From: Serripes groenlandicus
Taxonomy: Eukaryota; Mollusca; Bivalvia; Cardiida; Cardiidae
Reading direction: 5' to 3'
Length of the DNA stretch: 64,000 nucleotides
Assembly: GCA_031761405.1 (NCBI GenBank)
Contig: JASEVX010000017.1
Coordinates: 12,897,652-12,961,651 of the forward strand
The notes beneath the pieces are model-generated. The model made no database searches. It saw nothing but the letters and a program-made list of their open reading frames with translations, and was not told the DNA's origin. The translations under genes were made by a program, and so were the position numbers. Shown here one piece after another: positions 44,301 to 62,300 of this stretch (position 1 is the stretch's first letter; each line of letters opens with the position of its first letter).

Positions 44301-47300
44301 ACAGAATAGGTTAGATTACACACAAACAAGTTATGCTCTTAGTACAGAATAGGTTAGATTACACACAAACAAGTAATGCTCTCAGTGCAGAATAGGTTGG
44401 ATTACACACAAACAAGTTATGCTCTTAGTACAGAATAGGTTAGACTCCACACAAACAAGTTATGCTCTTAGTACAGAATAGGTTAGACCCCACACAAACA
44501 AGTTATGCTCTTAGTACAGAACAGGTTAGACTCCACACAAACAAGTTATGCTCTTAGTACAGAACAGGTTAGACTCCACACAAACAAGTAATGCTCTTAG
44601 TACAGAACAGGTTAGACTACACACAAACAAGTTATGCTCTTAGTACAGAACAGGTTAGACTCCACACAAACAAGTAATGCTCTTAGTACAGAACAGGTTA
44701 GACTCCACACAAACAAGTTATGCTCTTAGTACAGAACAGGTTAGACTCCACACAAACAAGTAATGCTCTTAGTACAGAACAGGTTAGACTACACACAAAC
44801 AAGTTATGCTCTTAGTACAGAACAGGTTAGACTACACACAAACAAGTTATGCTCTTAGTACAGAATAGGTTAGATTACACACAAACAAGCTATGCTCTTA
44901 GTACAGAACAGGTTAGACTACACACAAACAAGTTATGCTCTTAGTACAGAACAGGTTAGACTACACACAAACAAGTTATGCTCTTAGTATGGAATAAATT
45001 ATTGTTTACTTAAATCCAGTATCAAATACATGTATTTCATTTACACTTTATTTAGTAGATTTAGTTGTAAAAACCTTTGTGCCTCATCAAGCTGTTGCTG
45101 ATATACCACTTCAGGATATATCCCTTTTCCACATGCTGATACATTTTGACAAATCTGTTAAAGATGATGTGTTGATACATTTTCAATTCTCTTTTTTATC
45201 TCTACTGGCCAAAGGCCAGAAGGGCTTATGTCGTGGCGATTTGTCCGTCGTGCGTCCGTGCGTCCGTCCGTAAACAATTTCTTGTTAACACAATACAGTC
45301 TTCACTTTTGATTGTATCTCAACCAAACTTATACAGTAGTTAGATATCCATGAGAGCTCGGTTTCTTTCGAAAACCGCCCATGCATGACTGGATTATGGC
45401 CCTTGAAATGGTCAAAATTGCTATAAAAGAGCTTGTTAACACGATACAGTCTTCACTTTTGATTGTATCTCAACTAAACAAACTTATACAGTAGTTAGAT
45501 ATCTATGAGAGCTTGGTTCCTTTCGAAAATCAGCCAGATCCGCCCATGCATGACTGGATTATGGCCCTTGAAATGGTCAAAATTGCTATAAAAGAGCTTG
45601 TTAACACGATACAGTCTTCACTTTTGATTGTATCTCAACTTAACTTATACAGTAGTTAGATATCCATGAGAGCTCGGTTCCTTTCGAAAACCAGCCAGAT
45701 CCGCCCATGCATGACTGGATTATGGCCCTTGAAATGGTCAAAATTGCTATAAAAGAGCTTGTTAACACGATACAGTCTTCACTTTTGATTGTATCTCAAC
45801 CAAACTTATACAGTAGTTAGATATCCATGAGAGCTCAGTTCCTTTCGTAAACCAGCCAGATCCGCCCATGCAAGACTGGATTATGGCCCTTGAAATTGTT
45901 CAAATTGCTATAATTGAGCATGTGAACACAATAGAGGCTCTATTTACTATCTGATCTTCACCAAACTTAGATAGTAGTTAAATATTGATGAGAGCTTGGT
46001 TCCTTTTGAAAACCAGCCAGATCCGGCAAGACTGGATTATGGCCCATGAAATTGTAAAAATTGCTATAATACATCTTGTGAACACAAAAGAGCCTCCATT
46101 TACTATCCGATCTTCACCATAAGTAGTAGTATATTACCAATTCTGGGACATTTTCATTTTCTACCATACTTTTACCATGTAACTTTTAAACTTTTTATAG
46201 CCAGGGTACCATACCATTTTTAATTTATGGATAAATGCGCTCCATAAAAAAAAAAGATAGTAATAATTTAATGTCATAAATTGTCTTCTCCTGAGGGGCG
46301 CCCCACCCAACGTTGCGCCGGTTCTCCTACTGGTGGTTCTCCTACTGGTGGTTCTCCTACTGGTGGTTCTCCTACTGGGGGTTCTCCTACTGGGGGTTCT
46401 CCTACTGGGGGTTCTCCTACGGGGGCTGGGTTCTCCTACAGGCGCCAATGTCCATATGCAAACGTATGCACTCCATCCTCCTGAATGACCCTCTTGTCGT
46501 CGTTCGCTGACAAGGCGACCTTATTGATCTCCTCCGTGTACATCTGATGCCCATGACTCCGTATTACATTCATTTTCTTCATTTTCTCCTTTCTACTAAA
46601 CAGACAGGTCTTGTAGTCATCGAAGCTAATCTCCTTTTTGATTCCCCAAATTTGGGGAATCAAAAATTCATATGCGAGAAAATTATTGTCGGGGAATAGA
46701 AGCTACTGTTTTTTGCATATCACTTATAAGCAATAATAATTTTTGATGTTTTTGCACATGGTCTTTTTGCATTTTAATAAACATATTAACAAACGTTGTA
46801 TCTACATAATGCTTGGTAGCAGCATCCTGATTATTTAATGGATCAACAACGTTAGAGATTTTGTTTGTGTCCATATTGAGTGTACCTGATGCTGACTTAC
46901 TTCCATCCGTTCTTAAAAAATTATTGTTTAGGTAAGCCTTCAGTCTACTTACCTCTACCTCAAAGTTATAAAAATCGTTAGACATACCACCAAATTTATT
47001 AACAGGCATTTTTATAATAACAAGATTTGTTTTAATATATATGCCAAAAGGCATATATATCGGATATCAAATTAAATCAGATTGTTTATAATGTTTTGCA
47101 AGCTGTCTCCATCTGACAATCGTTTCAAAACATACAAGCATAGATGTCCACATATAACCGTCCCCGCCTTTTGCACTTGATGAGTGTTGTATGTAATTGG
47201 GAAAGTGGGGCGCCCACTTGGGATCCCCCGACGCGTGGAACAAAGTGACCTTTTAGAGGTCCCTGACGTCCCCAAATAGTTTATCAACTCAGTAGGTGGA

Positions 47301-50300
47301 TGTAAGCCATAGCTATCAAAATAGAACTTGTTATTTCCATCTTTCCACCATGCAACCCAATGTGTACCACCACCAGTCCTAGTTCCATATTGATCATTTA
47401 GGTTGTCGTTGTCATCTAGGTTGAGTATACCACACTCTTTTGTTTTAGGGTGCTGCTGCGCCCCACTAGGATGACCAATCAACTCATTACGCATAAACAC
47501 CCCTCTAAAATGTGGTATTTTTAATAACTTGACAGCATCTACCAATTCTAGATTGCTTAATGGTTTGTTTAGTAGGACTACATTGTCAACTGATATGTAC
47601 ATTTTATATTAACTATATTTTTGTTTAGGGTGCGGCTGGGGAACTTGTTGGGTGCGGCTGCGCCCCACTTCCCCCGACGCAACACGTTGCGCCCCACTAA
47701 ATATCAGAAAGGTCACTTCGTTCCACCCATGAATTAAACGACTCTGGATAACCAAACCACTTTACAAGAGCCTTTTTACCCTTTCTTCGTATTACCTTCT
47801 CAATCCTAAACATCTCTTGGTTAGTCTTTTGAAGCTCCTGCTCGTAGAATGTACCTTGAATTTCCTCTTCGTTGTAGTCTCTAATTTTGTATGTTACAGG
47901 GTTGGTATACTGAATCTCTGATACTGTAAACACCTCCTCAGTCCATCTCGGTGTGTACCCCTTCTCAAACGTCTTCTTCTTTTTAGTAATCCTAACCCTA
48001 TTACCAACAGCAAATTTCGGTTCTGAGTGACTTGTTGGCACTTCGTGCCCGACGCGTTGCGTTGGCATCCCCTTATACAGATTTCTATACACACGATTTT
48101 CATTCTTTTTCATACTAGCTTCTACAGGAGTCATCTTTATCGAAGAAGGCTTTGTGATGTTATATTGATCCACAAGATCATTCAATATATTAATGTATTT
48201 TTTGGTGGAATTAGCGGTGAAGTACTTCCACATTTGTTCCTTCATTGTTCTGTTCCATCTCTCAACCACAGATGACTTTTCTTCATTCTCCGTACTGTAT
48301 AGCTCAACAAGGTTTTGTACATTCTTGTTATAGAACTCTTTACCCTTGTCCACCCACATTTTCTTCGGTCTCCGCTCCTTAAAGATCTGTTTCAATGCAT
48401 CTGCAACAGACTTTCCAGTTTTATCTTTTAGCGGTATCATCCAACCATACTTTGAAAAGATGTCAATTACAGTCAACAAGTACTTGACGTTTTTGTTTTC
48501 TCTGGAAAAACTTTGCATGTCTACTAAATCAGCAGCCCAAATTTCATCTATACCATTAACGTAGACTCTTCTTTTTTGAAACTTTGTATTGACTGGCTTA
48601 TGTAATTCTTTAGCTAATTGGTTAGTCCAAACTATTTGAGCTTTTTTTTTTGTTGGGTGCGGCTGGGGGACTGGTCCCCCTGACGTACGTTGCGCCCCAC
48701 TTCCACACCCATCCCAAAGTTCATCTTAGTTCCAATTATTTTTTGGACGATGCTTCTGTCTAACCTTTCACGTACAGATGGGTTGTAAATTCCATCCAAC
48801 TCGTTAATCATGCTCTTATCACACACAGTATTCCTCGTGCTGGTGTCTTTATGTTTAGCATAACACACATCATGATGGTATGCAGCTTTATCAACACGAT
48901 TTATTGGGATGCTCCAAGGCTTAGGAGTCATGTCTATATTCAGCCTTTTGTTAAGCTTTGTTCCAGGGCCAGTAAAGTTATGACCTGGTAGATGCATTTC
49001 AAAAGGTAGCTTGTTGATTAGGTTATTGACAAATCCTTTACCCTCAACATTACAGGGTGCAAGGGTGCGGCTGGGGAACTTGTTGGGAAACAAGTTTCCC
49101 CGACGCGTGGAACAAAGTGACCTTTTAGCGGTCCCCCAACATATATTCCCCACAGAGCCTTTGACGAATTGGGTTTTTGTAGAACCGCAAACGCTACATT
49201 TACCCTTTTTCATATTTCTTCCATTTTTAGTGACAAGAGTTTCCAAGTCATAAGTATCAGTAAGCTCTCGACATTTCACGCAATACATTGTCATCGTTTT
49301 TAATATAAAAAGATATTGTTTATATTAAAAAACAATGGAAGTGAAAGATCTCTCGTGGAATGAAATGCAATACAAAAGGTTTAATCACTCTTTACTCCCC
49401 AAGTCAATACGGGGAGTAATTATTGGGAAGTCAGGTTGTGGAAAGACTACCTTGCTGTTGAATCTGCTACTCAATACGGGCTGGTTAGACTACAATCAAT
49501 TATCTATATTTGGTAAAAGTTTGTTTCAACCAGAGTATAGGATATTGAAAAAGGCTTTTGAGGAAAAGCTTCCTAAAGAAGCGATCATTCAGTTATTTAA
49601 CAATCAGGAGGAGATTATGAGTCTGGATGCTTCCCCGGAAACTATAGTTGAGGAGATGAGTAAAAATTTAAGATACAAGTCTGACATCAAATGCAGCTTT
49701 TATGAGACGTCAGAGGATGTACCAGATCCACGTGAACTTAATCCAAACAACAAAAACCTTATGATCTTTGATGATCTGTTGCTTGAAAAGCAGAACAAAT
49801 GTGAGTCATACTACATTCGTGGAAGACATTCAAATGTGGACTGTTTCTATCTATCACAAAACTATTTTAAACTTCCGAGACAGACTATCCGCGAGAATGC
49901 AAACTTTATCGTTCTGTTCCCCCAAGATCTTAAGAACATTAACCACATCTACAACGATCATGTCAGCAGTGATATGTCAAACGATGAGTTTAGAATTTTA
50001 TGCAAAAATACATGGGAACAACCACATGGTTTTGTTGTGATTGACTTGTCTTGTAAGAAACATAATGGAAAGTATAGGAGTGGGTTTGATAATTTTTACA
50101 TCCCATAAACAAATATATATGATATATAAAATGAATGTGGCAAACAATATTGATCTGCTAGTGGGGTGCAGCCGCACCCTAGAACAGATAGCAAAAAATA
50201 CAGAACCCAAACGCTCATTCCAGATTGTGGTGAGTGATAATAGTACGCATATCAAAACCAAATTTAATCCACCGTTACAACTCAATAGTGGGGCGCAGCC

Positions 50301-53300
50301 GCACCCTAAGAAGTATGAAATGGCTCTAGTCAACCTAGAGACGTACTACAGCTTTCCAAACATCGATTCTACAAACAACGTCTTTAGATACTCTCATGAC
50401 GGGGGTAATTCATGGGTGAAGATTATTATCCCTATAGGAAGTTATGAAATCAAAGATCTTAACGCAATTATTCAGTTAGAAATGAGGCAAAATGGTCACT
50501 ATAACATCCACAATAATGATGATTATATTAGATTATCAGCTAATTTTAATACTCAGAAAGCCATACTCACGTTAAAAAACAACTATCAAGTTAATTTTGA
50601 TAAGGGGCGTAATTCTATCAGAAATGTTTTAGGATTTAAGGGTAGAATTTACACTGATCTCTATAATGAGTCTGAAAAAGTGGTTGATATTATGTCAATT
50701 AATAGTATATTTGTCAACGTAGATATAATTTCAAGCTCATTTGTGAATGGAATATCAAGACCTATAATATATAGCTTTTTCCCTAACGTATCACCTGGAT
50801 ATAAAATCATTGAAAACCCGAAAAACTTGGTGTATCTTCCTGTAACGATGGACACGATCAGTAGAATGGATACAATTTTAACAGATCAAGACGGAAAACA
50901 GCTTAATCTCCGAGGAGAACAGTTGACCATGCGATTTCATATGCGAGAGATTTGATTTAAAAAAAAGAATATTGTATAAAATGAGTTATACGAATGTAAA
51001 AGTGTCAATTTCAGACGGTCAAAAGGAGAAGCTTAAATCAGGTCTGGGAACTTGTTCCCCTGAAGCTGTTTCTATAAGATTAAGCCATCACGATTTGAGT
51101 GGAGAAGATATACTCGCACTAACAAAGGCTCAAGTCACTAAAATGACAAAAGCTTATCAAGATGGAAAGGGGGTAACGTTCAAGATGAGTAAAACTCAAA
51201 TCAGACATAATCTTAAAGTGGAAGGAGGATTTCTCGGACTACTAGCAGGTTTAGCATCTAAAGTAGCTCCCTTTCTAATGAAATCAGTTCTCCCATCCTT
51301 AGGTATTGGAGCTCTGTCAGGATTAGCTAGTACGGGTGTGTCAAAGTTAATGGGAAGTGGGGCGCAGCCGCACCCAAATGGATTATACCTTAAAAAGGGT
51401 GGATGTGTTTGTCAGGTAGAAACAGACGGAAAAGGACTCTATTTGGGGCAATCGAGTGGTTCCGGGTTTGAATCAGTGGGGGATGGTTTGTATCTGAAAC
51501 AGGAGGGTGGTCTTTATGATGGACGGGGGTTATTACTTGGTAAAAACAGCCCCTTCAGTGGTATCCCACTCTTAGGATTGCTTTTGTAGTGGGGCGCATT
51601 GACATAGGTGCCACCCTAAAGTCTATCATGGCGATCATTTTTAGTGGGGCGCAGCCGCACCCTATACTCTTCATGGTATATAATACCTTATATATATGAT
51701 TTAAAAACATATAATCATATATAAAATTATGGAATGCAATTTAGGACATGAATATCGTTTACAGAGAATAAGTGAAATTCAGAAGTTGCTTGAAAATGAA
51801 CGCGATAAGCGACAGACTCTGAGTAAAAAGTATCATCGTGTATTTAACACGATATCATATATTTATACGGGTCTCATAACTGTTAGTATGGGGCTTGGTG
51901 TAAGTGGAATTGGTTTACTTTCAACCATTATCGCAGCTCCAGTAGTTGTTGCTATGGAAGCTGCAGCTCTAGGGATAGGATTACTTACCATCGGTGGAAG
52001 TTTTATAAATAAGAAACTCTCCTCAAAGGCGGAAAAACATTTACAGATTAAGATAATGGCAGAATCAAGCCTAGCCACAATCCAAGATTTTATTTCAAAG
52101 GCTCTTATAGACGACTATATGTCAGATGAAGAGTTTAGCTTGATAGCTTCTGAGTTAGACAAGTTCAACAAGATGAAAGAGGAGTTGAAACTAAGATCCA
52201 AAAAAGTCATAAAACAAGAATGTGAAGAAGCAACAAAGTCTTTCAGCAAAATGTTTGAAAAGAACGCAACACGTGCCAACAAGAAAACGTGATGAGAAAC
52301 GTGATGAAAAACGTGATGAGAAACGTGATGAAAAACGTGATGAAAAACGTGATGAAAAACGTGATGAAAAACGTGATAAAGATAATCTAGCCTCATTAAA
52401 AATGTCGTTTTTAAAAATAACAGACCCGAAGAAGAGGGATTTTATTGTTCAAGAGTTCCTCAAAACTAGACGGAATATTCAGCAAAGTAATATTTCTGAA
52501 CGCGTAGATGAACGGGAGTTGCAAGGTAATCTCTCAAAGTTCTTTAAACCTGTGACATCAAATCAACGGGAGTTGACGGAGGATATTCTTAGTGAGCTTA
52601 AACCTATAAAACAAGGGATTAAGGCGGTGCAGCAAGCTACACAAGAGATTCCAACGGCAATCCAATCGATAACGTTTCCTCAGTTTCCAAGTATTCAGAT
52701 GTTAGAGAAAAAAGAGCACCCTACAACAGAGACCAGCTTTATTGGTCCCATTGCGGAACAGTACTTAAGAAAGTTTGCATCAAAGGATGATGTTGATAAG
52801 ACCTATGGGATATATGACAAACATGGCAACTTCTTCATTGGTGATCAGCAACTGACAATTGTTGATGAGAGTTTATTTATTGGAAATAAAGAATATGAGG
52901 GGTCACCAGGTCTATGGGAATTATTGATGAGTAAGAAACCAGATCCTAATATTTACACGGATCAAGACTATAATAATTATGCTGAGATAATACACAGCAC
53001 CAACACATTACACAGGGGTAATAACCCTAATGTTAACCAACCAAAGGCGAGTAAGAGTTGGAAGTGGAAAAATCTCTTGAAAACGATGTGGCAGGCGCAA
53101 AACGTGAGTGCTCACTCCACATCTACCGGAAGTGGTTTGGCAACGCGTAGCGGTGACCTTCTCCCCAACGCAGACGATTTGGTGGCTAGGTTGGATCTCC
53201 TGATGGCAAGCAAGTCAGCGGGAAACACTGGAGTAAACGATGAGATTTTATACATTTTGAATCACTTGAAGAGTCAAAACATTATTGACAATGATTTATA

Positions 53301-56300
53301 TAAAAAAATGTTACTATAAAAAAAGTAAGCATGTTAATCATAAATCATCATGGATATGAAAACCGTTATGCCTATGGAGGATCGGGAATCTTTGAGTCTT
53401 TAGCAAATGTAGTTGGAAGAGTATTCTCATCCACTGCAGCGAAAACTCTAGGTAATGTTAGTTCGAATTTGGTTAAAGAAGGAGCAAAGAAGGCCTTACA
53501 GGCAGGACAGAAGGCAGCCCTCGATGCGGGTACAACTCTCGTTAAAAAGGGGGTGACCAAGTTGCTTATGGAGCCCTGGCGGAACTCTAGTAGGCCACAA
53601 CGTGTTGCGTCGGGGGAAGTGGGGCGCAGCCGCACCCAACAAGTTCCCCAGCCGCTCCCAACACTCAATCCTAAATCGCACGCAATCCTAGCTAAATACG
53701 CCAACCTAGTGGGGCGCAGCCGCACCCTAGCACCTAGTGGGGTGGCACCGCAAGGTGCCCGACGCTACGCGTTGCAAAGAAGCTCACATCATACCCCACG
53801 TCATAGTGGGGCGCGGCCGCACCCTAACATTAATAACTTAATAAATGGTTCTGGGGCGCAGCCGCACCCTAATCAAAACGCTATTGCAATACAAGATCTT
53901 GTTCGAAGGATGAACTTTAAGAAAAATTGAAAATGAGTTAAAGAAAAAATATCAGAAATTAAAACAATGGACATGAGTAATTTAGAATTTAAAAATGCAA
54001 TGTCATGCAGGTGTTATGATATTTATAACGATTCTGATTCTGATTCTGATTCCGAGTTGGAAGATGATGAGCTAGTAGGCTTCTTTAAAGGAGAGATCAT
54101 TGTCAAAAGAAGAAGAAATTCTATTGTATTTGAGGAAGATGATGAGGATCCTGAGGATGAGGAAGATGATGAGGATCCTGAGGATGAGGAAGATGATGAG
54201 GATCCTGAGGATGAGGAAGATGATGAGGATTCTGAGGATGAGGAAGATGATGAGGATTCTGAGGATGAGGAAGATGATGAGGATTCTGAGGATGAGGAAG
54301 ATGAAGGTTATGAAAGTGATGTTGAGGATTCTGAGGAGGATTGAGGATTTTGCGGAGTATTTTATATTAAGTAATAAGTTAAGTTAAACAAAAAGAATTT
54401 AGTAGTGGGGCGCAGCCGCACCCTAGGATATGTTTTGGTTTTTTTAACTTGTGGAAAATGAGTTAAAAAAATATCTTGTTATTATAAAAATGGACATTTT
54501 AAATTTTACCGAGACACCTATAGTAGATGAAAGTATTGAAGAATATCAATATCATGAGTATGAATCTGTTACGGGGACGAGTCTAAACAATCCTGGGGAG
54601 ATCAGGCTTAACATTGAGACACAGGATTTATTCACTCATCCGAGTGAGTCCTATCTCATTGTTGAGGGTCGACTTGTAAGATCTGATACAGGGGGTCAAT
54701 ATAATAATGTTAACAACATTACCCTTACAAACAATGCAATTATGTATCTGTTTAGTAATATTAAATATCAGCTTTCTTCGCAAGAGATTGAATCTATCAA
54801 CTCCCCAGGACAAGGAACCACGATGTTGGGATTGTTAAAATACCCCAACGACTTTAGCAAAAGTCAGGGTTTGAATCAGTTATGGTGTAAGGACAATGGA
54901 ATTAACGCAAAGTGGGATGCTGATGACGCAGGGTATAATGCAGGATATGCAATTAGACAACAATATCTCATCGGATCCCCAACACCTAAAGGAACTTTTA
55001 GCTTTCGAATCCCCCTAAAACATATCTTCGGTTTCTGTGAAGATTATACCAAAATCATTTACGGTCTTAAGCAAACGCTAACACTTGTTAGGAAAGGAAA
55101 CGATGATGCAATCTTTAGAAGCGCTGCTGATGCAGGAGGAGGAGCAGGTACTTTACCAGAAGCTGGTAAGGTAATTCTTGATAAGGTTTCTTGGTTTATG
55201 CCACACGTGTTACCAGCTGACAGCGAAAAGTTTCAGCTTTACAAGACAATTGAGTCTAAGGCAACTCTACCAGTTGCTTACCGTATGAGACAATGTGAAA
55301 GTATTTCTGTGCCTCCAACCACAAACTTTACCTGGAGACTGAGTGTTAAGTCTTCATCGGAAAAACCACGTTGGGTTATTGTTGCATTTCAAACTAATAA
55401 AGATAGTGACCAAACGACAAATCCAGCTGTTTTTGACAATCTTAATGTGAGGAATATGTGTGTCATGTTGAACTCAAGTAAATACCCAGCTGCTGATTAC
55501 AATGTATCATTTCCTAAGCAACAGTTTAGTCGATTGTATGGAGATGCCGTATCCTTCAGATCCAAGTTTTATAGCATGAATGAAATGGTAAGTAACCCTA
55601 ACATCACTCCAAGTGATTACAAGGATCTATACCCACTCTTTGTGTTTGATGTGAGCAAGCAGAGTGAAAGGTTAAAGATCTCTGTAACTGACATCCAAGT
55701 CAAAGCCCAATTTAATGCAAATGTACCTGCTAATACACAAGCCTTTGCTATGGTTATTTCAGACAGAATGCTCTCTTTTCAGTCAGACGGAAATAAGATG
55801 AGTGTTATATATTAGTAATGCAACGCGTGTAGCGGTGCCAATTTTTCTTAAAATGAGTTAAAGAAAACAAAATAATAATAAAAATGATAAATAACGCTAC
55901 GCTTCGGGCACCGCAAGGTGCCAAACTTCCAGAGTTAAAAAAAATTCTACGTCAAAATAAAATCAAGGGATACTCACACTACAACAAAAAACAGTTGGTT
56001 GAGTTGTTAAAAGGAAAGGGGTTGTTAGGGTGCGGCCCACTAGGGTGCGCCCCACTATCAGCAGAGGAGCCTCCACAACGCAACGCGATAATAAAACCAA
56101 AAAAAGAGGTAGATCCCAGGTTTGTGAGATTAAAGACAATCAGAACAAACCCCAAACAAGTTGTGTTGAAAAGTGTTAAAACGGGTGATGAGATTACATT
56201 TCCTTCAATTTACAAAGCATCACAATTTATAGGTAAGTCCCCCAGAATAATAACATTTTGGGATGGAAGGGTATGGAATAATTTGTATGAGATCACTGTT

Positions 56301-59300
56301 CGTAGTGGGGCATATATTTCGGATGAAAATCACCCTAAAGACCTTCAAGCTCGCAACAACAGTGAGGATAAATTGACCTTAATTACAAATTTAGAGGATA
56401 ATATATTGACCTTAATTACAAATTTAGAGGATGATATTAACAAGATGTATGATAAGGCAGACAAACTATGTGAGGAGTATATTGATTAAACATGTTATTA
56501 AAATATTTACATGTTATATGCGGTGAGAAGGTCACTTCGCTCCAGCGCATACAACATGACCAAAAAATACTTAGTTTTCACCATATTATAGCGAGGGACG
56601 AGCCCTTAGGGTGATTTTCATCCGAAATATATGCCCCACTTCCCCTAACGTAAAAAAATGAATTTTATGAATTTTATGAAAATAGCTTAAAGAAAATAAA
56701 TCTATAATAAAAATGAATATGAATATGAATATGTTTAGTAGAATCGGTAAAAAAGCTTTGAATGCTGTTTCAAGGGTAACGCCTCAGTTTATCAAAAACG
56801 CGGCAAAGGGAGCTCTAACACGTGTGACGCCTCAGTTTATCAAAAACAAGGCAACACAATTCACTGAATGGCTTAGTGATTATGTTGAGCCACAAACCTT
56901 CACCCAAACATTGGATGAGATTAAAGAGCATGTAAAAAATACATACAAGAAAGTGCAACCTTTCAAAGTTGAGGAAAGTAGGTCGGCTTTAAAAAGATTT
57001 ACTATACAATACGAGATTAAAGGAAAAAGCGGTTATGGAGCCCAATTCATTCCAGAAACATTTTTAAATGCTGTAAAGCCTGATGTTGTTAAACTTATTT
57101 CCGCAAACCGTATGACAAAAATTAAAGTAATTCTTAACTGTAGGATGGAGAAAACTAGTATATTAACAGGTGATGTTATTTCAGAACCTTCATCATTTCA
57201 CTCTCATATTGAGGTTAATTTAGAAGGAACAGATGCGAGTGATTTGTATGACACAATTACTGATAGAATTATGGAAGCATTATCAAACTTTCAAAGACAG
57301 GGTAGTAATTGGATCTTCAAAGAAATTATTAGTTTGGAGCTTCATACAGTCAAGTATAAACCACTACGAGGTAATTCTTATATCCCACTCCCCGGAAAGC
57401 TTGCATTAAAGAAGGCAATCATCAACATGAAAAACGAGGATGACATGTGCTTTAAGTGGAGTGTTGTTAGAGCGTTAAATCCGGTAAAATGTCATGAGGA
57501 GCGTATCTCAAAACTATTAAAACAACAATCGGAAGAACTTAACTGGGACAAGATCACATTTCCAGTTGACCTTAAAACCATAGATAGGTTTGAAAAACAA
57601 AATGTCACCATCTCCGTCAATGTCTTTGGTTATGAAAATGGAGACGTCTATCCTCTTAGGATTAGTAAGGCGCAACCGCAGCTGGAAGTGGGAAACGATT
57701 CCCACCCCATTAACCTTTTACTTATAGATAATGGGGAGAAACAACATTACTGCCTCATTAAAAGCATGAGCAAATTGCTATCCATACAAATGAGTAAAGA
57801 TGGACATACAAGACATTACTGCCTCCGATGCCTTAACTCTTTTATCTCAGAGGAATCCTTAGGTAAGCATAAAGAGTACTGCGACTCAAATGATGCTGTA
57901 AAAATTGAAATGCCGAAGGAAGGATCAACCTTAAAATTTAAACACTTTTTCAAACAAATGAAAGTGCCTTTTGTAGTGTATGCAGATTTTGAAGCCTTTA
58001 CTCAAAAGCTGGATACAACCCAGCCAAACCCAGAAAACAGTTACACCAAGCAGTATCAGAAGCATACTCCTAGTGGGTTTCGCTACTACATCGTCTGCTT
58101 TGATGATGAGGTTTACAAAAGGTTAAACCTAAAGGAAAATCCTGTCATTTACACTAAGAAATCTGAAGATGATGATGTACCTCAAATCTTTGTTGAAAGC
58201 CTGGAACAAAGCATGAAAAACATTTACAACAAATGTGGACATGCAAAGATGCTCATTACATCTGATGAGCAAAAGGCTTTCGAGAAGGCAACAGCATGCT
58301 GGATATGCCAAGAAAATTTGGATAGTGATAGGGTAAGAGATCACTGTCATTTCTCTGGTAAGTATCGAGGAGCTGCTCATAACACTTGCAACCTCAAGTA
58401 CCGAAAACCCAAGTTTACCCCCGTTTATTTTCACAACCTAAGTGGATATGACTCCCACCTGTTTATTAAAAACTTAGGTAAAACGGAGGGTAATATTAAT
58501 TGTATTCCTAACAACGAAGAAAAGTACATATCATTTACAAAAGAGTATGTAATTGACAGGTTCACCAACAAAAAAGGAGAAGAAAAGGAGGTGAAACATC
58601 AGCTGCGGTTTCTTGACAGCTTTAAGTTCATGCCATCTAGTTTAGCTGAACTGGTAGGCAATCTTCAGAAAGATCAATTTGTGAACTTAAGAAGCTATTT
58701 AGTAAATGATCAAATTAATTCTATGGGCTGGAACGGAGTGAGGAGCGTCGCCTCCCTCGATAAGAAGTTAAGTTTACTAACACGAAAAGGTGTCTATCCA
58801 TATGACTACGTCGATGGTCTTGAAAAGCTGTCTGAAAAACAGTTACCTCCAAAGGAAGAGTTCTATTCCAAGTTGAGTGGCGATAACATTTCAGACAAAG
58901 ACTATGTGCACGCACAACAGGTCTGGAAAGAGTTTGATTGTAAAACGATGAGAGATTATCATGATCTCTATCTTACATCAGATGTATTGCTTTTAGCAGA
59001 TGTCTTTGAAACTTTTAGAGATGTTTGTATGAAAAACTACTCATTAGATCCTGCTTGGTACTATACATCACCAGGTTTGTCTTGGGATGCTGCATTAAAG
59101 TATACCAATGTAAAGCTAGAGTTGTTAACAGATCCTGACATGCTACTTATGATTGAGAAAGGAATTAGAGGAGGTGTTAGCAGTATCATGACTCGGCATG
59201 GAAAGGCTAATAATAAATACATGGGAGATGAGTTTGATCCTAAAAAGGGTAGTACGTATCTGCAGTATCTCGATGCGAACAATTTATATGGATGGGCTAT

Positions 59301-62300
59301 GAGCAAACCTTTACCCACAAGCGGTTTTGAGTGGATGAGTGATGATGAATTAAATAATTGGAAAAAGGAAAAGTGCATTCTCGAAGTAGATTTAGAGTAT
59401 TCTAAAGAGCTACATGATTTACATAACGACTACCCTCTAGCCCCAGAACGAGTCACTGTAAATAAGGTTGAAAAACTTATTCCTAATTTAAATAATAAAA
59501 CTAAATACGTAGTGCATTACGAAAATCTTAAGCTATATGAAAGCTTGGGTTTAAAAATAACAAAAATTTATAGAGGTATTAAATTTAACGAAAGTAATTG
59601 GCTTAAAAAGTACATTGATCTCAACACATCTCTTCGTGCTAAAGCAACCAATGACTTTGAAAGGGACTTTTTTAAGCTTATGAACAATTCTGTTTTTGGA
59701 AAGACTATGGAAAACATTCGAAACAGGGTTGACATTAAACTTGTAAATGATGAAAGTAAGGCTTTAAAGCTTTCAGCAAAGCCTAACTACAAACATTGTA
59801 CTATCTTTGATGAAAACTTAATTGCAGTTCATATGAAAAAGACCAAGGTTAGGTTTGACAAACCGGTTTACTTGGGGATGTGTATTCTTGACATCAGCAA
59901 AACCTTAATGTATGATTTTCATTACAATTACATTAAAGCAAAATATGGGGAGGATGCTAAGCTATTATTTACTGACACTGACAGTTTAGCATATGAAATT
60001 AAAACTGAAGACTTTTACAAAGATATAAGTCCAGATGTAAATGATATGTTTGATACAAGTGGAATACCAAACAGTCATCCCTCTTGTATACAAACTGGTA
60101 TAAACAAAAAGGTTGTTGGTATGATGAAGGATGAATGTGGAGGAAAGATTATGAGCGAGTTTGTTGGATTGAGAGCAAAATTATATTCATATAAGATGTA
60201 TGAGGGTAAGGAAGAAAAACGTTGTAAAGGTGTTAAGCAGAGTGTAGTCAAAAAGGAGATTAGCTTCGATGACTACAAGACCTGTCTGTTTAGTAGAAAG
60301 GAGAAAATGAAGAAAATGAATGTAATACGGAGTCATGGGCATCAGATGTACACGGAGGAGATCAATAAGGTCGCCTTGTCAGCGAACGACGACAAGAGGG
60401 TCATTCAGGAGGATGGAGTGCATACGTTTGCATATGGACATTGGCGCCTGTAGGAGAACCCAGCCCCCGTAGGAGAACCCCCAGTAGGAGAACCCCCAGT
60501 AGGAGAACCACCAGTAGGAGAACCACCAGTAGGAGAACCACCAGTAGGAGAACCACCAGTAGGAGAACCTGCGCAACGTTGGGTGGGGCGCCCCTCAGGA
60601 GAAGACAATTTATGACATTAAATTATTACTATCTTTTTTTTTTATGGAGCGCATTTATCCATAAATTAAAAATGGTATGGTACCCTGGCTATAAAAAGTT
60701 TAAAAGTTACATGGTAAAAGTATGGTAGAAAATGAAAATGTCCCAGAATTGGTAATATACTACTACTACCATACATACATGCTCTGGATTGAAAATGAGC
60801 AAAGAACCATACCAGTGGAGCATAGGCCCTCATGGGCCTCTTGTTTATATTTTTACTGAGATTTTTTGGAAAATGTCTGCTGCAGATTTGATGAATGTGG
60901 GAAAGAGTTAAGTGAAAAAAATAAATGATTTTTAATGACTGGGAATGAATGTTGGTAATATGTAGTATTAAAAGGCATTTGTGTTCCTTGGATTTTCAGA
61001 GAGATCAATAGGTTGTTATATACATTTAGATTTGTTCTAACATATTGTTATTATGAGTCCTGAGTTAAATGGAGTTTTGTCAGATAAGGTATAATATAAT
61101 ACATAGATAACACAAGGCAATCAGTTTCATGACAATTTTAGTGTAATTATTTTCACTGTAGTAACTAACAAATGGTCAAATTTTGAGTAATCATTGTCAT
61201 TGTAGTAACATGTGTTCAAATCTTAGTGTGATTATATTCACTGTAGTAACATGTGTTCAAATTTTAGTGTAATTATTTTCACTGTAGTAACATGTGTTAA
61301 AATTTTAGTGTAATCATTTTCACTGTAGTAACATGTGTTCTATTTCAGAATGCTCATGATAATATAATATGTGCCATGGTGGCTGCAGGAGACTACCTCT
61401 TTACATCATCCTTTTCTCTTGTTAAAGTAAGTATCACAGCACATTTCTTTGACCTTTGTTGGGTAGATGTATGATGGCTTGAGTTACATCATACAGATCA
61501 ATTTGAATTTAAACTTGAGTAAGTGGTCACCTCTGTTAAGCGGTCATTTGAATGTTAACCCTTTCCCACATACAACAAATCTGCAGCAGACAACTTTGAA
61601 AACATATTGATAAAAACATGAAGTATCTACATTAATGAGAGTTTAATTATGAAATAGAGTTGAAAACATTGTGGCAAAAGAATAAATTGCTTGTTTTGAA
61701 CAATTTCTTCTTTTGCTACAATGTTTTCAAAAGTCATCTGCTGCAGAGGCGTCAGAAAGCATCTGTATGTGGGAAAGGGTTAACCAACAGACACTGCCTT
61801 ATATATATTTGACTTTTGCCATCAGTCTTAAGCATCCACATTTTTATTTCTCCCTAGGTCTTATGGCCTTAGTTGGACTAAAGTTTGCAATAAAATTTAG
61901 ATAGAGGATATTTCATGAGTGTTTATTTATTATCACGAGTTTACTAAGATGATATGCAGCGAACCTTGGCGAGTGTCTTTTTCAGCTTAGTTAAGAGTTT
62001 ATTCAAAGTGAAAATAAATAAACACAGATTAGGTGTTCTATTTATCACATAAAGTGATTTATGAGGCCTATTTCGAAAAAATGTACTTGAAATTTGCCAG
62101 TTTTGGGCCAATGTGACTAACGTTATATAACGTCAAACCGCTGACATGACGTCATTTTCATAGTTTGGTTTTCGCGTTGTAACTAAGACTTCAGCGTAAG
62201 ACTGGAAACCAATCTAGTAGTGTCATATGATATTTATGTAATGGGTTTTTGACACTCCCAGAGAGGGCTTTATGTGATACTCTGATATAAATTTCATAGA

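Follow-up and report, generated by a model that had tools for sequence, protein, structure and literature searches.

Short GC-rich cassettes with fixed ends, exchangeable cores and whole-codon lengths in a Polinton of Serripes groenlandicus

GC clusters have long been known in mitochondria, and the mechanism by which they spread is described as still open (PMC4478555). Those of Saccharomyces mitochondria (GC42 and others) are reported to be short and GC-rich, to carry short terminal direct repeats, to merge and shuffle their units and to turn over rapidly between close relatives (PMC4478555). Rickettsia palindromic elements (RPEs) insert in frame in unrelated genes and are read as peptide (PMC10969869). 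Here, we describe 17 GC-rich cassettes of 13 to 49 bp, of the form GTGGGN...CACCC, in one Polinton at positions 46122-60767 of a 64,000-nucleotide stretch of DNA from Serripes groenlandicus (the window, to which all coordinates refer). The cassettes resemble yeast mitochondrial GC clusters and are used in frame as RPEs are, yet they are assigned to neither.

The likeness to GC clusters is one of description. Short end repeats and the merger and shuffling of units are found here, but the mitochondrial location is not: GC clusters lie in mitochondria between AG or ACT flanks (PMC4478555), whereas the cassettes lie in a Polinton between TA or AA. They further differ in their size range, fixed GTGGGG/CACCC ends, net lengths in multiples of three and mostly genic placement. 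The initial annotation had likened the repeat to RPEs, a comparison that is apt as regards in-frame use but fails on size; RPEs measure about 150 bp and encode a conserved peptide (PMC10969869), whereas the cassettes reach 49 bp at most and are read in several frames. Other small genomes offer partial parallels. In Magnusiomyces capitatus mitochondria, many short blocks likewise lie in genes, at 81 positions, but there the frame is broken and the ribosome bypasses the blocks (PMC5009743), whereas the cassettes come in multiples of three and are read through. Sponge and Allomyces mitochondria contain repeated hairpin elements that spread in a small genome, but repeats of this type are described as mostly intergenic and those of Allomyces as being without flanking duplications (PMC2800124). 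Submariner miniature inverted-repeat transposable elements (MITEs) of Pandoravirus salinus and the M1 and M2 repeats of pithoviruses have invaded the genomes of DNA viruses with a 2-bp TA duplication (putative in pithoviruses), and some Submariner copies lie in coding sequence, as cassettes do (PMC4495683). Unlike the cassettes, both kinds of repeat are longer and have terminal inverted repeats (PMC4495683, PMC10664404); for Submariner, a related transposon is also known from the amoeba that hosts the virus (PMC4495683). Among the papers listed from the open-licence literature on Polintons, adintoviruses and such repeats generally, we found no earlier description of such repeats in Polintons, in agreement with the initial annotation.

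The pattern AGTGGGG-N5..35-CACCC was matched 16 times in the window, compared with 0.04 matches expected from shuffled sequence; all matches fell within the Polinton, and two of them overlapped (47628/47650). The sequence AGTGGGGCGCAGCCGCACCC, at up to 3 mismatches, gave 11 matches in the window compared with 0.00 expected. A wider pattern, GTGGG[GC]-N0..60-CACCC, returned 18 rows, none beyond the Polinton. By eye, two of these rows (47650-47697 and 53740-53799) were set aside as chance pairings and the outer cassette at 47628-47697 was added, giving 17; a degenerate copy with the left end TCT (53850-53869, plus strand), which reads SGAQPHP in frame, was left out. The claim of at least 15 copies with shared ends, restricted within the window to the Polinton, was borne out. 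The paired pattern did not occur in the remaining 49 kb of the window; unpaired ends do occur there (AGTGGGG twice, CACCCTA seven times). The cores are variable, as had been stated, and the cassettes fall into six lengths: 13 bp (2 cassettes), 19 bp (10), 28 bp (1), 31 bp (2), 46 bp (1) and 49 bp (1, nested insert set aside). Of the ten 19-bp cassettes, seven share one sequence and the other three are each off by one base, so the spread is likely to have been recent.

The repeat had been given with the ends AGTGGGG. Its ends are fixed as claimed, but the repeat itself runs from GTGGGG to CACCC, and the adjoining TA or AA forms a 2-bp direct repeat outside the cassette ends. The same dinucleotide stands on both flanks of 16 of the 17 cassettes (TA in 12, AA in 4), which defines the borders and the target duplication that the initial annotation had proposed to establish, and in all 16 the identity of the flanks stops at 2 bp. 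When the right flanks were permuted, agreement of this order was rare (p 0.002; p 0.007 when the nested pair described below is counted without its second copy). A target site duplication is also a feature of MITEs, and the 16 matching flanks, of both TA and AA types, would be left by a MITE-like miniature transposon if an enzyme of the host or of a relative (a transposase or endonuclease) mobilized it through 2-bp staggered cuts at TA/AA; the Polinton would then be no more than its landing place. Precedents are the Submariner MITEs, with TA duplications and 10 of 30 copies in coding sequence (PMC4495683), and the pithovirus repeats, with a putative TA duplication (PMC10664404). We consider this explanation possible but not probable. 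MITEs measure 100-600 bp (PMC4495683) or 116-422 bp (PMC6004678), far above 13-49 bp, and neither fully inverted termini nor a homogeneous length of about 100-600 bp was found among the cassettes, whose six lengths vary and whose GTGGGG/CACCC ends are weakly and partly inverted. Their cores vary freely, truncated copies exist, and the 49 kb of flanking DNA holds no copy. Tc1/mariner enzymes have strict TA targets, which the AA targets misfit. A transposase with a 2-bp stagger would thus explain the flanks but not the tiny size and the loose cores.

With its flank, the right end reads CACCCTA in 13 of the 17 copies and CACCCAA in 4. The termini TAG..CACCCTA recall those of hATm elements (5'-TAGGGTG and CACCCTA-3'; PMC6004678), which would make the cassettes hAT-type remnants. 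hATm duplications are 8 or 9 bp long (PMC6004678), however, and the expected 8-bp duplications are not there: beyond the dinucleotide, at most 4 of 8 flank bases are shared in any of the 17 pairs. Together with a net gain of 21 bp at the clean empty sites and the four copies that end in CACCCAA, this led us to reject a hAT origin, to which we attach next to no credence. The Polinton integrase was also rejected as the mover; its own duplication measures 6 bp, compared with 2 bp at the cassettes.

The initial annotation proposed a mobile or recombining cassette, a view that would fall if related Polintons all carried the same segments in place. The relatives listed do not carry them, and the interpretation is supported. 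Four genes were compared, using the best 120 of 1,408 matches for the penton gene and the best 120 of 1,045 for the protease gene and counting inserts of at least 4 amino acids; the names protease, penton, PX-like, SAP-like and PolB derive from position, reading or the initial annotation. Among the matches listed, the inserts were missing from the relatives in all four genes. In the protease gene, a 19-bp cassette between TA flanks (47448-47466, minus strand) encodes SGAQQHP at a clean empty site, GHP[SGAQQHP]KTKECG facing VGHL-KKNECG and VSRP-KKNECG; at the first protease site, 1 of the best 120 relatives has an insert, of different sequence. The PX-like gene has a cassette between AA flanks (51357-51375, plus strand) and also a clean empty site, KLMG[SGAQPHP]NGLYLKKGG facing KVMG-QGLYLKKGG in both relatives compared (2/2). 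The net gain at these two sites is 7 residues, or 21 bp, equal to 19 bp plus one dinucleotide. Near the penton N-terminus, a cassette between TA flanks (50161-50179, plus strand) gives DLL[VGCSRTL]EQIA where relatives read LLEQIA or LLEKIA; this insert is present in 0 of 28 relatives, and short inserts of other kinds occur at the penton N-terminus of P0007 and P0098. At the second penton site (50288-50306, plus strand, TA flanks, SGAQPHP), no insert of at least 4 amino acids was found in the 117 relatives listed, a count that excludes the long relatives P0025, P0036 and P0043 (P0036 and P0043 were used in the PX-like comparison). The SAP-like gene contains a tandem pair of 13-bp cassettes with one TA in common (56028-56055, minus strand, antisense to the gene), which encode GCGPL and GCAPL. 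Here LL[GCGPL][GCAPL]SAEE stands against LLPEE, with an insert in 0 of 29 relatives; P0134 has an unrelated insert three columns on. A 31-bp cassette further on in this gene (56305-56335, plus strand, TA flanks) encodes SGAYISDENHP in a variable tail, where there is no clean empty site.

The comparison bears on the view that these segments are ordinary conserved protein or regulatory motifs, retained for a function of the peptide or the DNA. The ends are fixed, and several proteins contain the same in-frame peptides, SGAQPHP for example. Within genes, however, the same cassette DNA is read in several frames and in both orientations (SGAQPHP, VGRSRTL, GCGPL), and a conserved peptide function was dropped on this ground. 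Cassettes also stand at stop codons and in spacers, and they are absent from the listed relatives. We regard such motifs as a very improbable explanation.

Eleven of the 17 cassettes lie within genes, 2 at stop codons and 4 between genes. About 88% of the Polinton is coding, and the 11 genic copies, spread over six genes, keep the frame open, as RPEs do; the genic positions and the open frames agree with the initial annotation. Counted with one dinucleotide, every cassette, intergenic or not, has a length divisible by three (15, 21, 30, 33, 48 or 51 bp); six such lengths would arise by chance with p 0.0014. A 19-bp cassette between TA flanks has one sense frame that starts with TAG and two that are open, and the same holds for the antisense. 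Cassettes within genes use solely the open frames. The TAG frame is used twice, at the ends of the integrase open reading frame (ORF; outer cassette, 47628-47697) and of the PX-like ORF (28-bp cassette between TA flanks, 51589-51616, plus strand). By reading, the flanks alone would spell TAA at both places, so that a cassette there would change little. The small basic gene has 19-bp cassettes at 53619-53637 (AA flanks), 53709-53727 (TA flanks, VGRSRTL) and 53806-53824 (TA flanks, SGARPHP), all on the plus strand. Intergenic copies include those at 51644-51662 and 54405-54423 (both 19 bp, plus strand, TA flanks) and a second 31-bp cassette at 56609-56639 (minus strand). None of the 17 lies in the ATPase, coil51, 52k, major capsid or PolB genes (p 5e-06 for random positions; p 0.00075 excluding PolB). 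When the peptides were placed on predicted structures, as the initial annotation had suggested, the protease inserts (residues 46-52 and 114-132; mean pLDDT of the model 79, with 114-132 below 50) and the second penton insert (residues 53-59; a weak model of mean pLDDT 67.7) were predicted to lie in coil. Insertion at many places, followed by loss of the harmful copies, is the simplest reading. Translational bypass over the cassettes was considered and is unneeded, because the lengths are multiples of three and the frames are open.

Fourteen of the 17 cassettes are oriented along the direction in which the surrounding sequence is transcribed (p 0.013). This would be expected if the spread were RNA-mediated, with cassette transcripts entering new sites by reverse transcription or reverse splicing, a route suspected for yeast GC42 (PMC4478555). 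The sense bias rests on copies that are not independent (the nested and the tandem pair), however, and no reverse transcriptase domain was found in the 10 Polinton ORFs scanned, a set outside which PolB, 52k and the smaller ORFs fall. We consider an RNA route doubtful.

Cassettes are found inside one another, in truncated form and joined to other modules. In the outer 49-bp cassette at 47628-47697 (minus strand, TA flanks), for which a double hairpin is predicted, the palindrome GGGGAACAAGTTCCCC encloses a 19-bp cassette (47650-47668, minus strand) between AA flanks. The 46-bp cassette at 48655-48700 (minus strand, AA flanks), located in the overlap of the open integrase frame with the PLA2-like gene, is built alike and has no nested insert. 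The nested pair recurs with its left end truncated in the small basic gene (53598-53655), around the 53619 cassette. A hybrid copy at 49062-49132 joins a portion of the outer cassette to a module that carries the segment GTGGAACAAAGTGACCTTT. This second type of module occurs at 49098-49132 (plus strand), in the PLA2-like gene, and at 47224-47256 (plus strand), in the protease gene, where the corresponding protein insert is absent in the relatives P0150 and P0151. By reading, GTGGAACAAAGTGACCTTT equals the tail of the integrase gene itself at 18 of 19 bases, and this tail directly adjoins a cassette. The WVERSDL part of the integrase tail aligns without gaps to HP1 chromodomains, so the tail is likely to be native and the likely source of the segment, the modules at 47224 and 49098 probably holding a captured piece of it.

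We lean towards copy-and-paste spread by template switching in the Polinton's own replication as a somewhat probable explanation. Replication template switching at TA/AA is favored, with a transposase of 2-bp stagger as its main rival. What has to be accounted for was observed directly: the borders, the 2-bp direct repeats, the nesting, the tandem pair that shares a TA, the truncated and shuffled copies and the absence in listed relatives. The polymerase would leave its template at a GC-rich cassette, and its end would re-pair through the 2 bases TA or AA at a new site. The cassette would then be copied, at times with neighboring sequence such as the integrase tail. Selection would retain only cassettes that read open with a net gain in multiples of three, in loops, tails, stop codons or spacers. 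Template switching would explain the confinement to the Polinton, the truncated copies, the hybrid modules and the captured neighbor sequence.

Several observations weigh against this reading. Equal dinucleotides at both ends are also expected from a 2-bp staggered cut, and the intergenic 31-bp copy at 56609 has unlike flanks (AA..TA), the one exception among the 17. All empty sites were deduced from protein sequences, for one Polinton only, and three of them depart from a clean gain. The penton N-terminus is nearly clean, with further extra residues upstream in the window; the SAP-like site is off by one residue; and the second penton insert amounts to a net gain of 5 amino acids instead of 7, because relatives have 2 residues more than expected for a clean 21-bp gain, which suggests that bases were lost at this site or earlier. 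Folding of the cassettes is modest, with z values for the five folded of -1.3 (19 bp), -1.3 (46 bp), -1.6 (49 bp), +0.2 (28 bp) and -0.1 (31 bp). The penton insert near the N-terminus maps to a predicted helix (pLDDT about 50, weak model), and a GC module of the other type does sit in 52k (53117-53163). Finally, 12 insert peptides of relatives were compared with 26 GC islands in all six frames, and 9 of them bore no resemblance to the modules; the 12 had been picked by hand, with P0155 and a window control left out, and the likeness of P0150 and P0122 had been seen beforehand. A strong hairpin, comparable to the stable palindromic stem of mitochondrial GC clusters, was also considered; the folding of the short cassettes was not significant.

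The remaining three peptides of that comparison, from P0150, P0122 and P0125, reached the floor of the test (p 0.007), P0122 and P0125 sharing one insert. P0150, the closest listed protease relative (92% identity over aligned columns), is without the cassette and has a different insert, DERSDLLRS, at the same site. Its ERSDLL is a literal reading frame of the GC-rich module at 56520-56550. The SAP-like relatives P0122 and P0125 read ..REGHFIPKE, with a best match to the module at 47198-47280 on the other strand (..KGHFVPR). These matches hint that related Polintons may also carry such GC modules, in which case the DNA of the three inserts would be GGAACRAAGTGACC-like with WA flanks. Searches of viral contigs for the DNA of the relatives gave either no match or pattern matches (28 and 18 stretches), none of which encoded a relative; in genome contigs, 8 stretches matched, none a relative, and a further search gave no match.

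In a compact virus-like element, the clean 2-bp borders, empty sites and whole-codon lengths make the spreading step testable, and sister Polintons of one genome would serve as natural replicates. If the proposed spread is true, it provides a route for short foreign peptides into capsid and protease loops. More broadly, Polintons may carry frame-neutral parasites of their own, with fixed ends, exchangeable cores and whole-codon lengths, that would capture gene pieces and drop them as peptide linkers into these loops, so that, throughout a lineage of virus-like elements of animals, virion proteins would be diversified by one mobile system of less than 50 bp. We offer this generalization tentatively, as an idea that is rather unlikely to hold in full.

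The Polinton that carries the cassettes is flanked on both sides by the 6-bp target duplication ACCATA (46116-46121 and 60768-60773). Its terminal inverted repeats extend over about 500 bp; of their first ten 50-bp blocks, 8 are identical and 2 agree at 98%, and because of this agreement the Polinton is likely to be a young insertion. Pfam analysis revealed an integrase (rve and Chromo), a Pox_A32-like ATPase, a double jelly-roll (DJR-like) capsid protein and a PLA2-like domain. The 6-bp duplication, long terminal inverted repeats, rve integrase, A32-like ATPase and double jelly-roll capsid protein identify the element as a Polinton. In the Pfam scan, which covered 10 Polinton ORFs without PolB, the protease, penton, PX-like and SAP-like ORFs had no match; PF07498 is present in one SAP-like relative, P0131. 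The protein-primed PolB expected of a Polinton is a putative assignment, made by reading of a 1,246-amino-acid ORF (56713-60453) whose end falls within the terminal repeat. The terminal repeats contain a tandem array of CAGTAGGAGAACC-like units (46301-46440 and 60450-60590).

Two further sets of GC-rich modules, which lack the cassette ends, were noted in this Polinton. A second family around GGAACRAAGTGACCTT, which is common to the integrase tail, occurs in genes and spacers (47224-47256, 49098-49132, 53117-53163, 56525-56539 and 47708-47735). Modules of a third type, which contain palindromes resembling CGCAACGCG and GGCACCGCAAGGTGCC, are located in the integrase, small basic and SAP-like genes and past the capsid gene (48031-48072, 53735-53776, 55819-55842 and 55894-55924). 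The last of these (plus strand) lies at the start of the SAP-like gene, where it encodes NATLRAPQGA, and is absent in the aligned relatives. The protease loop between YLG and YNT (47190-47275, minus strand) holds a long insert, with other inserts in P0152, P0173 and P0234; judged from these sequences, the loop appears to be tolerant across Polintons. On the minus strand at 48519-48700, the integrase frame has no stop ahead of its first ATG: it crosses an A10 run and the 46-bp cassette and reaches into the PLA2-like gene. The last codons of the latter overlap this open frame in a different frame, and no ATG was seen there; slippage or fusion may be used at this junction. Tandem AACGTGATGA(A/G)A units lie close to the start of the 52k ORF (52264-52375), and the small gene that precedes the capsid gene contains a tandem acidic repeat rich in Glu and Asp (54131-54309).

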